From Dillenia suffruticosa (Eukaryota > Streptophyta > Magnoliopsida > Dilleniales > Dilleniaceae), in NCBI GenBank assembly GCA_033439265.1, contig JAVTVX010000030.1, positions 4,404,501 to 4,468,500 on the forward strand: 64,000 nt of DNA. Direction: 5' to 3'. The notes below the pieces were generated by a model. It made no database searches, was not told the origin of the DNA, and was given only the letters and a program-made list of their open reading frames with translations. The position numbers were made by a program, and so were the translations under genes. Positions 1 through 27,765 of this stretch are shown here, piece by piece. How positions within the stretch are numbered: position 1 is the stretch's first letter; each line of letters begins with the position of its first letter.

Positions 1-300
1 TTGCTTTCCCCTCCCCACCCTTGGTTTTTGTTCTTCAAAATTGAGGCTACCTGATTCCAGACACTGATCATGTCATTTATTATCTTACATAATATGAGTG
101 GAGTGCATGTCTGGTTCTTACCTTGAACATAAAATATACACTCCTTCATTTGTTAATTCTCTGAGGAACAGAAATTGAAAGGTTGCTCTGATGCAAACAA
201 AGGGTCTCTGTCGCCTTTGTTGCATACTTAACATAATTTTGGCATGATCAGGCTGCAGAGCTTAGCAACCAAGACTCAAATCTCGACACATATGACTATC

Positions 301-361
<61 letters not shown>

Positions 362-1785
362 CTCTCTCTCTCTCAACCAGAAAGAAAGGGGGTTGGGATT
401 TCACCTTTAAGGCTTAGAAAGCCAACTCCCTTTCTAAGCTTAGACCCCATCCTCACCGTAACAAATTGCAACTATCACATAATTTAAGTACCAATTTCTA
501 TTATCCAAAAATAATAATTTCTCATAAACTTAATTAGTAATTTAATGACACCAACATACCAATATTTAGTGTTTTGTGAGCTTGGAAGGAGAGAGAGGGG
601 GGGAAGAGAGAGAGAGAGAGAGTGGCCAAGATTGATCTAGAGAGAGAAAGAAAGAGAGAGAGTGATTGATTGAGCTAGAGAAAGAGAGAGAAATTGACAT
701 GATTTCAATCAAAATCAACACTATTCCTGTTAGAATTGACCTTTCTGGTCGTTTCAAGTTGAAAGGCAAAGATGGAGATAGTTTGGGTAAAAGAGGAGGA
801 AGACACTAAGAAAAGGAAGAAAGAAAAAGAAAATGGTAACTTCAGGTGAAATTGTTTTTTATTATTATTATTATTATCTTTTATCTATTATCCCTTTTAT
901 TTTTGTAGCACACACCCATTGACAGCCAGGAGCAATAGTTGCCAAATTTGCAAATCAAGGGGTTTTTTGGCCAGTTTTGAAACCATGGGGAGAAACTTGC
1001 TAACAAAGTAAACCAAAGGGGACTTTTCCAGTTTTGAAACCACATTGGGCAACTTGGCAATGTTGCAAACCACAACGGGTTGTTAGGAGTTTTCCTTATT
1101 TTTAAACCTCAAAATCAACACTGATGTCAATACATATCCTTAAATGGGCACCTGCTACCCAAAGCATGTTTACCAATATATCAAATGTGAAACCAATCTA
1201 CCATTTTTGCAGTGGAATTCGCAACCAAATAACAGTACTCCTTTATGCAGACGGCCATAGGACATAAGTCTCGGTCAAAATTGCCTACCCAACAAAATTG
1301 GACAATCCATACAGTCTCAGCCAGAATTCTGAGCAATAAACAAAACCACTCAGGACAGGGAAGATTTAAAAGGGATCCGAATATGTGAATAGGCCATATT
1401 GCAGGCACATGAACACTTTAAGCACAAGATAAAAATCAAGTTTAGGTAATTGCACATGTAGCTTCCAACAGCTAAATTTTCTCCAACCAAACAGTAGTCA
1501 ATATTTATGCAAAACTGAAGAACCACCTAAGACTCAGAAACTAGGTTCCTTCCAAAAGGCCAATTTCTTGTGTTCTTATTTACTGTTGAAGAAAGTTCGT
1601 AGCAAATTTAAGTCGTTCTGACTTGTTAAAAAAAGGCTGCCAACACTATCACCAAAAGACTTCCCCCTGCATAGTGTATGTCAAATAGATAAAATATCCA
1701 TTACATACAGGGCAGCCATACTTTTCAGTTATCAGACAGAAGTTCCATTCCAAGTCTCAAGCTAAACAGGTATGTACAAACTTAC
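1..1785 (-). other. Part of a long ATX-gene intron running off the left edge
   Basis: After the donor at 1785-1784 (GTAAGT on the minus strand) I find no downstream ATX exon down to base 1; no segment encodes the residues that normally follow the extended PHD. The stretch is ordinary intron sequence with a CT microsatellite and GA/CT-rich pieces around 585-680. The short reading frames in it look like noise. Confidence 0.7.
303..374. repeat. (CT)n microsatellite, interrupted
   Basis: A perfect run of 27 CT units at 303-356, a short break (ATCAA), then about six more units to 374. It lies inside the ATX intron. Likely length-polymorphic. Confidence 0.97.
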
Positions 1786-4700
1786 CTCCATGCCATATCC
1801 AGCCCTTAATGCACACATTGCATGAAAATAGGTGGCACATTTGCAACACTGTGTGCATGAACCATGGGTTTGCTCACAGATGACACATCTCTGGAATAAA
1901 AACAAAAGGAGAGATCAGCAGAGCTGAGAGAATAGATCACAACACCAAATTTTGACAACCAAACAGAAATTCAAATGGAAACCTGAGACTAGTGTACAAA
2001 TGAAAATAAAACCAAGTACCACTTAATAGAGTGAAAGAAAATATGTGGAATCACCGAGTAACAAAAGCTTGAAGAAAAGATTCAACTATTTTGGCACATT
2101 GCACAGAGAAAAAATATGTCACGCCAACATATGATTGAGAAGATAAAAAGGAAAGAACTAAAACGAGGAAACGAAACATTTAAAAGGATCATAATCACAA
2201 AATTAAAATGCAACAACAACAATAATAAAATGAATCTTAATGCAAAATTTTGGGGTCGATTGTTTGAAAAACCAATATAAGAGAACAAAAAAATGAAAAA
2301 GATATAAAATTAAAGCTTGAAAATAAAAAATAAATAAATAAAAAATCGAAGATAAAACTAAAAATTAAAAATAAAAATAACAAAAATAAACTATTCATAA
2401 AAATTTATAATAATGATGATGATAATTCAAATTCTCCTATATCGCTCGTTCATATCTAAAGTTATCTCTTCAATTAAATTCTTGACACTCATATATTTAC
2501 TGATAATTTGTATTTAAATTTTTAACGACATACCCCGACGTTTCACTAAATCACGTATATCTAAATTCTCGCTCCACCTAATTAGTGCGTCTTTGGGTCT
2601 TTGTTACACATGTTCAAACCATCTTAAACGATACTCTCATTTTATCTGCAATTGAATTTAATCCTAATTTAGTACGTATGTCTTTATTTTTAATCCTATT
2701 TTTTTCTAGTTTATCGTACAACCATCTGAACATCCTTATCTCAGGTATAACCATTTTATACTCTTGTTGTTTAATGACACAACACTCAATATCATACAAT
2801 AATACAGATTTTACTATAATTTTATAAAATTTCTCCTTCAACTACAATAATATCATATGATCGCAATTTACAATGATATCAGATTTTATAATCCAAATAC
2901 ACTTCTCTATTTTATCAAATCCACTAGGGTCCTATGATACATATCCTCATTTATTTTATCATCGCTTTGGATGATTAATCCAACATATCTAAAATGTTTA
3001 CTCTTTGATACATCATATTCTTTTAATTTAAATATTTTCTCATCATTCTGATTACTACCACCAAACGTATATATTATATACTCCATTTTTTACCAACCCA
3101 ATCTTAATCTTCTAAATTCTGATGTGTCTTTCCATAACTCTAATTTAACACTAATACCCTTCTTAGTTTCATTGATCACACTATATCATCTACAAAAGAG
3201 CATATACCATAGTACTTCATATTAGATTCTTTTTGTAATTCCATCCATCATTGTAACAACAAGGAGGGGAGTAAATGTCGAACATTGGTGAAGCCCTATC
3301 TTAATTGAAAAATTATCACTTGAACTCCCACAAGTTCTAACATTGGTAATAAATTCTTCATACATATTTTTAATGAGACCAATGTATTTCAAAGAGATCT
3401 TATTATTCATCAACATCCACTATAATATGTCTCTAGAAACTCTATCATATATTTTTTTTATCAATAAATACCACATGCAAGTCTCTCTTCTGCATTCTAA
3501 ACATCTTCATCAAATGTTTAAATAAGTGAATCACCTCAATGGTGGATCGTCCTAACATGAATCCAAATTAATTTTGATATACACTTTCATCCATTCTCAA
3601 TATATATTCAATCACTCTCTCCAACAACTTCATAGTATGAATAATAAGTTTAATTCCCCCGTAATTGAAACAATCTTGCATATTTCCTTTATTCTTTTAT
3701 ATTGGTACAACTATACTCTCCCTCCGTATTTGGATATTTTCTTAGTTTACCAAATTTTATTAAAAAAATATCCATGAACATTTCTATCTCCACTTCACAC
3801 AAATACTTCTACACCTCAATAGGGACGTCATCAGGTCCTATACCTTATTATTCTTCATTTTTTTAAGGCATCCCTTACTTCATAAGAACGAATTTTACGT
3901 TTAAAATCCTTATTTATCCCTTTTATATATATTGCAATATCACCGATATCTCTTATACCATCAACGTTAAAGAGATTATTTAAAAAATCACTCTAACGTT
4001 TTGTTATGTCATCATTTCTTACAAGAACACTATTCGTCTCACTTTTAATGCACCTAACACCGTTTATGTCTTTTTCCTTCCTATCCCTTAGTTTGACAAT
4101 TCTGTAAATCTCTTTTTTCCATTTTTAATTTCTAGTTTTTTATATAATTCCTTATATACCTTACTTTTTGATTTGCGAATAATCTTTTCCACCTCTTTTT
4201 TTGCAATCTTATACTTCTCAAATGTATCATTAACTCTCTTACTTTTAAAGTTTTTATAATACTCTCGTTTGGTTCGTATAATAGCTTGGATTTCACCAAA
4301 TTCGTTTGGGTTGAGTGGTCGGTCACTCTATCCTCTTAACTAGAGGTCTCAAATTCGAATCCTGAGAATAGAGAAAAATGATATGGAAGAGCCAACCCGT
4401 TAATTGGCCCATAGTACTCACACCGGAAGTTAGGCAAAACTCGGATACCAGTTGATGACAAGTTATCCACTTACACCAAAAAATAATAATAATAAAAATA
4501 ATAATAGTTTGGATTTCTTTATTCTACTACCATAACTTCTTGCCTATTGGTGTCTAACCCTAGATATGCCAAAATCCCCTTATCTAAATTCTTAATATTA
4601 TTCAATATTTTACCACATGGTTTTCAAATCATCATTAGCAAATTAGGTAGCTACTCGAATTAACTTGTCTCTAAAGATTGTCCCCTTACCTTTTAGGTAC

Positions 4701-22382: not shown

Positions 22383-22550
22383 AGATTGAGTGATTAAGAG
22401 TACTCTAGCCTTTTAATTAGAGATTTTGAGTTTAACTCTGAGAATGATGAAAAAAGATTTGAAAAGGTCAATCCCTAAAATAGACTGTACAATATTCGAA
22501 TCGGATTAATCGGATAAAATTCGGATACCGATGATAAAAAAAAAAAAAAA
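22383..22550 (+). mobile_element. SINE (family A, copy 2)
   Basis: The tRNA-like head GATTGAGTGATTAAG is followed by a decayed box B region (GAGTTTAACTCTGAG), GTCAATCCCTAAAATAG, ATTCGAATCGGATTAATC and TCGGATACCG, then an A14 tail. It aligns by eye with the minus-strand copy at 60273-60422. The target-site duplication is unclear. Confidence 0.75.
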
Positions 22551-22592
22551 TCTTGTTATGGGGCATTCTGGTTGGTGGACTCTAACCGGCTT

Positions 22593-22846
22593 GTCCACAC
22601 TTTGATTGGCCATTTTTGAACCAATCACCCACTCAAAATTTCACACTTCTGTCACCCCTAAATGCTAACCCACCGGCCCCTTTCTCGGCCTTTTGGCTAA
22701 GATCAAGTGTAGTAAACGCTAAACCACCGATAATATCACATGAGAAATTACCAAGCGGCACGTCGAGCACACTATACTCGTTTAAAAATGCCAATTCACT
22801 TTTTAATCTTAAAAAATGTATTGTGTCATTTTCGCAGCATAAATTA
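22593..22846 (+). repeat. Local segment duplication, copy 1 (contains the U2 insertion)
   Basis: Aligns with 23190-23396: GTCCACACTTTGATTGGCC, TTGAACCAATCACCC, TCACATGAGAAATTAC, AAGCGGCACGTCGAGCACAC, CGTTTAAAAATGCC and TTTTCGCAGCATAAATTAA, with scattered mismatches. The only large difference is a 54-bp expansion in copy 1 (a 40-bp insert plus its flanking duplication). Both copies carry CCAAT and near-telo-box motifs, so the segment may derive from a gene promoter; no gene follows. Confidence 0.85.
22675..22714 (+). pseudogene. 3'-truncated U2 snRNA retrofragment
   Basis: Bases 22679-22714 match the 5' end of plant U2 snRNA from about nt 4 to nt 39, including TTTCTCGGCCTTTTGGCTAA and ending exactly at the branch-point-recognition GTAGTA. 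The remaining ~155 nt of U2 are absent, so this is not functional. It is flanked by AATGCTAACCCACC (22661-22674) and AACGCTAAACCACC (22715-22728), a probable 14-bp target-site duplication with two mismatches. The sister segment has the single uninterrupted site AACCCTAACCCACC at 23257-23270. Confidence 0.88.
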
Positions 22847-22849
22847 AAA

Positions 22850-23189
22850 ACATTAAATTAAAAAATGATATTTTGTGAGAATACAATAAAAGAAAATATG
22901 GACAAATGATCAAATATGAAAATATAAGAATATTAAAAATATAAGAAATTTTATTTAAATATTAATTATTTTATAAAAATAATAAAGTTTTCATTTTTTA
23001 TAATAAAAATTTAAAATGATCAAATATGTAATTATTAATCATAATTAAGAAAATAATATAAAAAAATTATAATTAAAAAAATAAATAATTCATTGAATAT
23101 AAAAAAATATAAGAATTTTTTGTATAAATATTGTTTATATTGAGACATTTCCAAAACAAATAATATTTCAAAAACGCATGGATCAGAGA
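22850..23189. other. AT-rich spacer between the two duplicated segments
   Basis: Very A/T-rich; AATATAAGAA-like words repeat (for example near 22922, 22937 and 23100). No coding or RNA signature. Confidence 0.6.
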
Positions 23190-23396
23190 TCCAAACTGTC
23201 ATTGGCCCTTTTCGAACCAATCAACCCCTCAAAATTTTCCACTCCTGTCGCCCCTAAACCCTAACCCACCAATAGTCTCACATGAGAAATTACAAAGCGG
23301 CACGTCGAACACACTATAGACTATACGTTTAAAAATGCCTATTCACTTTATGATCTTAAAAAAAGTATTGTGCGTTATTTTCGCAGCATAAATTAA
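23190..23396 (+). repeat. Local segment duplication, copy 2 (empty site)
   Basis: Counterpart of 22593-22846 without the U2 insert. It keeps CATTGGCCCTTTTCGAACCA, the TAAACCCTAACCCACC stretch and AAGCGGCACGTCGAACACAC. A TATATATATATG run at about 23503 and CTTTGACTTTG lie downstream, but no gene model could be built. Confidence 0.85.
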
Positions 23397-24724
23397 GAAG
23401 ACTACCAAATCTAGTACCGCCCCACTTAGGAATTTCTTTCCTAGCTTTATTTCGACTCTCCTAGAAATCCATTTTCATCAGCAAGCACCCACTTTGACTT
23501 TGTATATATATATGAACTCAAAGTTCTCTTGCTGCTGGGAGGATGAGAAAGTAACCAAATCTATCACATATTATATTTCTAATTTGTGTGATAATGCTCA
23601 GAGAGAATATGGGGGATAGGATTACTTTGGTAATTTGGTTAATTAAATATCAAACTAAATGCTTTTATATTACAGAAAGGTAGGAGCAGAAAAATCAGGA
23701 TTTTGCACCACTTTTAGCAAAACAAATCCAAATGAATGCTCCATGTTGCTTTGCTGATCTACTACCCAATGGGTGTACGGAATAATTGCAGATAATTTGA
23801 AGGTGCATAAGTGGGAGAAAACGTCATGCAGTTGGTCATCTCCTTGGTCTAAATGTCATTGATAATAAGAGAAACTTCAATATTGTTACGTGCATTAATA
23901 ATAATACAAAGTTTAATTGGACCCTTGCAAATGATTAAATTAAATAAGTCAGAATATGATTCTATACACAGAGATGGTGAGAACAAAAAAAAAAGCAAAA
24001 AAAAAGGGAAAGCAAAACATTCAGGTTTATGGTCGAGCGGGCCAGGTCCTAAGGTTTTGTCCATAGAACCGCGATAGACTTCTGTGATCGAATGGATGAA
24101 GTCCCATCATTTCAACTGTGAATTATAGGACTAACTCTGTAGGATTAGGGGATGATTGTTCATGTGGTCTGGCGAAGGAAAGAATCTCCTATAATCTAGC
24201 ATGAATCATGAAGACAGTCTCTCATGGCCAAGTGGACTGAAATCCCATGATTGAATGAATTAAATTTTATGGTTTCATTACAAACTATTGACGCAGCCCT
24301 ATGGCTTAGATGTAGGGTACGGAACTAACTCCTATGTTTCGATGTGGACCATGATGTTTAGTTCATTGTGGTGGTGGAGTCGAGCATATCGCATGGTCTC
24401 AACCATGAACTACAGGTTTGAATCCTTTTTTATTGGGGGACAATGGTCGGGTGAGCACCAACAAAACACTTACCTAATTCGACCGTGGGACTATGATATA
24501 GATCATGGGACTTGTTTCTACTAACATTGACTATAGAATTCAATTCTAGCATCAAACACAATAAACTCATGCTTTGTTGTATTCAATAATCAGATTTTAT
24601 GTGGGTTAAACAAGAAGTGCATTTCCATCTTTAGTAGAGGCCCGAAAGCTCCCATTTTTTTTTTTTGGATTATAAATGAGTGCGGGGAGAAACTAATTTA
24701 TAAAAAAAATCGTTTTCGAATATC
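23397..24724. other. Intergenic DNA with faint internal repetition, origin unknown
   Basis: Around 24095-24430 there are loosely similar pieces such as CCCATCATTTCAACTGTGAA, GCATGGTCTCAACCATGAAC and ATGGTTTCATTACAAACTAT, suggesting decayed tandem or transposon-derived DNA. No protein family is recognisable, and the frame 24288-24524 has no homology that I can see. Confidence 0.4.
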
Positions 24725-25911: not shown

Positions 25912-27765
25912 AATGGACTAAATGGAGTATATTTTAAGATTTACCATATTGGAAGAGTTATTTGGTTCATCATAATTTTGATGTAATACATATCGAGAAG
26001 AATATTTTTGATAATCTGATAAATATAATGATGAATATCACTAGGAAAACGAAAGACAACTTGAATGCAAGAAAATATATGCGACTCCTTTGTAAACGAC
26101 TCACTCTTGATGTCGATGAAAGTAGTAGGGGACCAAAATCTAAAATAGTTTATACATTGAATAATGATCAGAGACGGATTGTTTGTGAATGGTTGAAATC
26201 TTTGAGATTTCCTGATATAATGTCTTAAATCTTAGAAAATGTGTCGATTTGAAGGAATGTAAATTGATTGATTTGAAAAGTCATGATTGCCATATATTTA
26301 TGGAAAGACTAATTCCTATTATTTTTAAAGAATTCTTACCAAATTTTGTTTGGGGTGCCATTACGGAGTTAAACATTTTTCTTCATGTTATTTGCTCGAC
26401 AGTGTTGAGACATTTACACATGGAGATATTAGAGAGAGAGATTTCAATCATTTTGTGTAATATAGAAAAGATATTTTCACTGTCATTTTTTGATTCTATG
26501 GAATATCTTTTGATTTACTTGCCATATGAGGCGAAAATTGGAGGTTCTATCAAACTTCGATGGATATATCCATTTGAAAGGTGAGTTTTTTATTTTTTAT
26601 ATTTCGTTATCAAGGCAAATAAAATTACTAATTTCATTACATATAATTTTTTAATACATTTTATTTTATTATAATTAGATTCCTATATCGTTTGAAAAAA
26701 AAAAGTGAAAAATAAGATATGTGTTGAAATCTCTATTGTCAATGCATATATTATGGAGAAAGTAACAACGTTTATATCATATTATTTTGAGTCTCACGTT
26801 CAGTACAAGAGGCAGAGAGTGAGAAGAAATGATGAGGGTTTTATTGATCCCAATTTGAAGTCATTCTCAATTTTTAACTATAGGTCGACCAAGTGGACCA
26901 TGTAACCGTAGATACTTAACTGGTCAAGAATGACGGACAGTCCACACATATATTTTACTGATCTGTTCAGAAGTGATACCATATTTCGACTTAATATATA
27001 TTTTCTATTTTATATATTTCTTATGTCGTAAATTATTTGTGTTAAAATTTATTTTATTTGATGGTAGGATTTTCCAAAACGTATATTCTGAATTTTCGAC
27101 ACATGAGTTTGATCGTTTCTGCTATGAAAAATTTACACCATGGTTCAAAAAATATGTAAATAGACTATAAATTATTTAAATATTTACTTTAAAACATATT
27201 AACATATTTATTTGATTTTAGATCTATGATAATCAAGTTCAAGTTAAGCAAGTATTGTTAATCCATCTATTATGGGGTCTAAAATCAATGGTACGAACTT
27301 GGCCAACATATTTCATAAACGGATATAACTTTCATACTGAAAAATATGGAATGGGAAAAACGACAATGAATAGTGGGGTTTGTGTTCAGTCATCCAATGA
27401 TGGTGGATGTCAAAATGATTTTTATGGTTTGTTGAATAAAATTATAGAGGTAGAGTACCATGTTCTAGAATTACGGGTTGTTTTATTTATGTGTCGCTGG
27501 TTTGACCCTGTCAAAGGGATAAAAGTATATCCACAGTTTAATTTAATTGAAATATATCATAAGAAATTATATAAAAGATATGAACAATTTGTGTTGGCAC
27601 AATAAGCGATTCAAGCATTTTATATTTTATATCATAGTTTGAAATATGACAAAATTGATTGATGGGCTGTTTATAAAATGAAAGTACAAAAAAAAATTGA
27701 GAAATATTGGGAAGATATAGTATATCAACAAGATGAAGTTGCCAACATATTTTAGACCGAGAAAT
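25912..27765 (+). pseudogene. CACTA tnp2-like transposase remnant with following DUF4218/DUF4216-type parts
   Basis: The remnant begins in the C-terminal part of the tnp2 transposase: KSYLVHHNFDVIHIEKNIFD (preceded by WTKWSIF, a stop, then DLPYW), NLNARKYMRLLCKRL, and later KECKLIDLKSHDCHIFMERL, with EILEREISIILCNIEKIF and LIYLPYEAKIGGSIKLRWIY (DUF4218-like). Next come IMEKVTTFISYYFESHVQYK and, after intron-like AT-rich gaps, VLFMCRWFDPVKGIKVYPQF with NLIEIYHKKLYKRYEQFVLA (DUF4216-like). It closes with LLRDPSGVVIDVDAS and an acidic tail. Single-base indels and in-frame stops (27603, 27660) break it. The N-terminal half of the transposase is missing. Confidence 0.85.

Follow-up and report, generated by a model that had tools for sequence, protein, structure and literature searches.

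The closest described counterparts of the element reported here are the tailless retropseudogenes, which are recognized by flanking duplications, the lack of an A-tail, and ends that fall where the source RNA is single-stranded (Noll et al. 2015, PMC5322556). In that report, internal priming by the nicked target at single-stranded RNA regions is given as the explanation of the class, the target consensus is TT/WAAAAWWX(0–17), and 2,402 human cases are selected. The screen used there allows at most 5 unmatched nt at the 5′ end and calls for a 3′ truncation of at least 10 nt, a length of at least 30 nt, an identity above 69%, and a duplication of 8–35 nt that is at least 70% identical and lies within 15 nt of the 3′ end. 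A tRNA-derived tailless class is attributed to Schmitz et al. 2004 (as cited in PMC5322556). Among plants, the same report gives only eight U2-derived tailless copies in maize, and from this additional restrictions in plants are suspected. Two further accounts are relevant: the duplication lengths of full-length L1 elements peak at 14–16 bp, and 22 mostly 3′-truncated ncRNA copies similar to the present one are described (PMC2912911, Mob DNA 2010); and L1-like retrocopies with duplications have been proposed in dicots, together with the remark that in plants the major route is held to be through LTR elements (PMC4838847).

A copy of the 5′ part of U2 snRNA is present in the window (the whole stretch of 64,000 nucleotides of DNA that was analysed), together with a closely situated paralog of its surroundings that lacks it. 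The copy most likely arose by reverse transcription; it neatly exemplifies a known type of event and is not a new phenomenon. The locations of the features are given in Table 1.

Table 1. Features of the U2 insertion and of the paralogous empty site (positions in the window).
Feature	Length	Sequence	Position	Strand	Comparison or content
Filled copy of the duplicated host segment			22594..22855	+	182/208 aligned bases identical in alignment with paralog
5′ target-site duplication	17 nt	TAAATGCTAACCCACCG	22659..22675	+	15/17 identical to 3′ copy
Insert proper	37 nt		22676..22712	+	GCC + U2 nt 4–37
3′ target-site duplication	17 nt	TAAACGCTAAACCACCG	22713..22729	+	15/17; two mismatches vs 5′ copy
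Paralogous segment with empty site			23190..23404	+	87.5% identical over 208 aligned bases
Empty site, single uninterrupted copy		TAAACCCTAACCCACCA	23255..23271	+	14/17 identical to either duplication copy

The sequence at 22679–22714 (+), CCTTTCTCGGCCTTTTGGCTAAGATCAAGTGTAGTA, is identical at 36 of 36 bases to nt 4–39 of the U2 stretch in contig L002 and ends at GTAGTA, in full agreement with the initial annotation, which had described a match of 36 bases to U2 nt ~4–39 stopping at that motif. The same annotation spoke of a 40-bp insert; a U2 insertion it is, but the stretch between the repeats is 37 nt. The GCC at the start of the insert is unmatched and stands in place of the U2 ATA (nt 1–3), and U2 nt 38–39 (TA) are at the same time the first two bases of the 3′ repeat, and are thus common to both. 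An origin of the GGCC preceding the match in a second piece of U2 was considered and rejected as chance, the likeness being one of 4–5 nt seen by eye.

The length of the match is well outside the background. When the window is shuffled 100 times by single bases and only the given strand is compared, U2 matches reach at most 16, and the longest on the window's other strand is 13. A 30-nt core of the copy (22680–22709), allowing up to three mismatches, occurs once in the window and 0 times in 100 shuffles. SINEs with snRNA heads are found in crocodilians, and they lend some precedent to a reading in which the insert is the head of a repeat family of this kind, but we regard it as extremely improbable, given that the core is found only once in the 64-kb window at up to three mismatches and that the insert runs directly into the duplication, with neither body nor tail. 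The Rfam U2 model scores the fragment at 40.2 bits (E = 1.3e-4 for the whole window), and because this lies below the gathering score of 46, the default Rfam scan of the window lists no row. Relaxing the threshold to E values of up to 1 for the whole window yields eight rows including U2, none at its gathering score; two of these (Phe_leader, E 0.0027 and 0.078) were dismissed as matches to A/T runs and the remaining five are weak (E 0.074–0.64). At E values of up to 10, the region 22400–23500 has six further rows, all with E of at least 2. When five plant small-RNA sequences were compared with the window by blastn, there were four matches of 12–16 nt (E 0.29–0.43).

Only two genome-contig stretches matched exact U2 patterns and could serve as references, both in MAG records (L001 and L002); the two patterns found 0 and 0 stretches in viral contigs. 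The longest exact match to the window copy is 33 in L001, as against 36 in L002. We take the 5′ end of L002 to be that of a plant-type U2 and that of L001 to be animal-like, and therefore the source of the copy looks like a plant-type U2. The L002 stretch that was compared comprises 1838 of the 9838 bases of its contig and ends inside U2, covering it to nt 77. This contig is filed as a Trichormus (cyanobacterium) MAG and bears the 5′ part of a plant-type U2 at 1762–1838; our guess is that it is possibly host-plant DNA. L001, a 5.6-kb contig filed as a bacterial MAG, has matches to U2, U1, 5S rRNA and the histone 3′ stem-loop (three of the last) clustered at 118–4586, and probably represents eukaryotic contamination with a linked histone/5S/U1/U2 cluster.

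The insert is flanked by direct repeats. A flanking direct repeat with two mismatches had been noted previously and both the repeat and its two mismatches are present, but its real length is 17 nt and not 14 nt. Repeats of 17 nt with at most two mismatches and the same geometry occur at 86 of 64,000 window positions (with 300 around the site excluded), and the chance of such a repeat is therefore about 0.1%; with the left copy restricted to at least 40% G+C the count is 36 of 24,920 positions, and for a 14-nt repeat with two mismatches, as described earlier, it is 269 of 64,000. From comparison of the three available sequences, each copy of the repeat appears to carry one private change, and the differences are too few for dating the insertion. 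Selection on the unchanged U2 bases was considered as well and rejected; at a rate of two changes per 34 duplication sites, 0 of 36 has a probability of 0.11.

The previously reported related segment, 0.6 kb away and with a single uninterrupted site, is borne out by the alignment of the two segments, in which the site lies opposite one large gap of 54 nt, corresponding to the 37-nt insert plus one 17-nt repeat; the three other gaps are of 2–3 nt each. Since the gap is 37 + 17 and the paralog has a single copy of the site, the arrangement is that of an insertion that duplicated its target site, with the empty site still legible in the paralog. Pre-existing tandem copies of CTAACCCACC, which had been named as the finding that would speak against an insertion, are absent from the empty paralog, which has one copy. 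The simplest order of events is duplication of the segment followed by insertion into one copy. The initial annotation also raised the reverse direction, in which the second segment once carried the insert and lost it precisely; only the direction of the change is at issue here, and a retrocopy origin would fit either way. Formally, two paralogs by themselves do not distinguish gain from loss, but a loss must remove the insert together with exactly one 17-nt repeat and leave no scar, and we know of no excision of retrocopies; loss thus seems barely credible.

Several other features of the segments are apparent. Both 0.2-kb segments contain ATTGG/CCAAT motifs. The sequence AAACCCTAA, presumably a plant telo-box, is present at 23256 in the empty copy and at four other + strand sites in the window, and the U2 insert is located at the telo-box position of the duplicated segment. 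The duplicated 0.2-kb segment may be a promoter-like piece. A functional U2 snRNA gene was considered and rejected at this locus: after nt 39 there is no U2, the downstream sequence is host segment shared with the paralog, and the rest of the Rfam alignment is poor. The U2 copy is probably inert, because it has no U2 beyond nt 39 and because its upstream sequence is host segment shared with the empty paralog and not the flank of a U2 gene.

With the L002 U2 standing in for that of the host, the copy lies within all of the applicable numeric cut-offs of the PMC5322556 screen. First, the 5′ end is nearly complete, with U2 nt 1–3 replaced by GCC and nt 4–39 exact. Second, the 3′ truncation is extensive, the copy ending at nt 39 of a U2 that reaches at least nt 77 in the L002 stretch and 192 nt in L001. 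Third, the duplication is 17 nt, 15/17 (88%) identical, and adjoins the 3′ end with a 2-nt overlap. Fourth, the copy is 36 nt at 100% identity, or 36/39 (92%) over nt 1–39, as measured against L002 and not the host's own U2. As to the remaining characters of the class, in the Rfam U2 structure line the GUAGUA end is unpaired, lying after stem I and before the stem that follows; when the L002 U2 stretch is folded as a single strand, nt 34–36 pair with nt 2–4, unlike in Rfam, and nt 37–42 are left unpaired. There is no oligo(A) tail, as AACGCTAAACC follows directly after the copy with no A-run. The target site, CC/TAAACGC, fits the consensus TT/WAAAAWW at W and AAA but not at TT or the fourth A, the consensus being no strict rule.

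We consider it very probable that this is a tailless (3′-truncated) U2 retropseudogene, formed when a LINE enzyme working in trans carried out target-primed reverse transcription. A LINE endonuclease would nick the bottom strand at CC/TAAACGC, and the freed 3′ end (...GCGTTTA-OH) would pair with the UA of U2 GUAGUA (nt 38–39). Reverse transcription would run as far as the U2 5′ end or stop just short of it, and after second-strand cleavage 17 nt away, repair would leave three unmatched bases at the 5′ junction. In favor of this are the 36/36 match to U2, which begins no more than 3 nt from the 5′ end of that RNA, the 17-nt duplication (15/17), the paralog gap of 54 = 37 + 17, and the TA overlap without an A-run. 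There are also points against it. Before the nick stands CC in place of TT, and the WAAAA motif is matched only by T-AAA; an overlap of no more than 2 nt often arises by chance and is weak evidence; and folding pairs U2 nt 34–36 with nt 2–4, contrary to the Rfam structure. The three bases at the 5′ junction are unexplained, and the treatment of extra 5′ nucleotides in PMC2912911 concerns L1 itself and leaves the GCC here unexplained. In PMC5322556, plant cases are so few that extra restrictions are suspected. A Pfam scan of 40 of the 146 window ORFs (at least 70 aa) found no reverse transcriptase, although the enzyme would not have to be encoded nearby. The scan did find, at 26216–27602 (+), ORFs with DUF4218 (9.3e-19) and DUF4216 (2e-9) domains, which we take to be typical of plant CACTA (CMC) transposons; this is possibly a decayed CACTA element. 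These two domain matches, together with the plant-type U2, are the grounds for regarding the host as a plant.

A single copy is insufficient to establish a mechanism, and the same junctions bear on other routes. The main rival is double-strand-break repair without a LINE, in which fill-in of a staggered break yields the 17-nt duplication and a short stretch copied from a U2 gene or RNA patches the gap. Filler DNA and patch-like tandem duplications occur at plant breaks. The three unmatched bases at the 5′ junction suit end joining, the pre-nick CC misfits the L1 motif, and a 2-nt overlap is equally suitable. Nonetheless, copying from DNA would not account for a start so near the 5′ end of the U2 transcript (within 3 nt) or for a stop in an unpaired stretch, no upstream U2-gene sequence is seen (as judged against L002 only), and the T/AAA with which the duplication opens is a partial fit to a LINE nick. 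It therefore seems unlikely that break repair produced the copy.

The end of the copy at nt 39 can also be approached from the RNA. Self-priming was proposed earlier to account for truncated snRNA pseudogenes, and a cDNA could have been made first, either from a U2 fragment ending at about nt 39 or from a U2 3′ end folded back at nt 39, and then inserted; that the 3′ end of the copy overlaps the target by only 2 nt would agree with this. Against it, PMC5322556 looked in human for matching truncated U2 RNAs and for truncated copies with an oligo(A) tail and reports no convincing case, in part without showing the data, and we hold such an origin to be improbable. LINE-type internal priming, break repair, self-priming and the repeat-family head are not fully exclusive readings, since the self-priming alternative can share steps with LINE-type internal priming. 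Self-priming or template switching, put forward in the initial annotation, is not needed: internal priming by the nicked target is the published explanation (PMC5322556) and fits the 2-nt TA overlap, if weakly.

A more specific role for the branch-recognition sequence may be envisaged, in which GUAGUA of U2 paired with a branch-point-like CTAAC in the target, so that the base-pairing function of U2, and not random priming, would have set nt 39 as the 3′ limit of the copy. The 5′ duplication copy (TGCTAAC) and the empty site both contain CTAAC, and the 3′ copy has CTAAA. If this were so, plant U2 copies should repeatedly end at nt 34–39, with targets enriched in CTAAC. We find it highly improbable, as the orientation of the copy needs bottom-strand priming, which shares only TA with U2, and CTAAC is a common 5-mer.

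The value of the locus lies in a clean tailless snRNA insertion in what looks like a plant genome with its empty site alongside, for which the plant U2 count to compare is the eight of maize (PMC5322556). It had been called unusual in a plant, and plant cases are indeed few, but it is not unprecedented in view of those eight copies and the 30-nt minimum applied to them. A search of published papers for the U2 letters gave no match within the open-access literature, and other plant cases may exist. Alone, a single U2 case adds little; a survey of such copies would reveal whether internal priming on structured RNAs is tolerated by the LINEs of plants.

Comparison with known systems places the copy closest to the U2 copies of PMC5322556, with which it shares a near-complete U2 5′ end, a single-stranded 3′ truncation, no A-tail, a flanking duplication, and T-AAA at the duplication start. 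It differs in being near the 30-nt floor (36–39 nt), in having an empty-site paralog 0.6 kb off, and in a target that starts CC/TAAAC and not TT/WAAAA. The L1-like retrocopies of dicots (PMC4838847) are likewise from plants and have similar duplication lengths (15 bp at 93% and 17 bp at 61%, the reality of the latter being discussed by the authors), but derive from protein-coding transcripts, and several of them have poly(A) tails. Chimeras of U6 and other RNAs with LINE-1 (PMC13174262) similarly involve non-coding RNA moved by LINE machinery, often with duplications, whereas the present copy is without joined LINE sequence, 34 of the 37 insert nt being U2.
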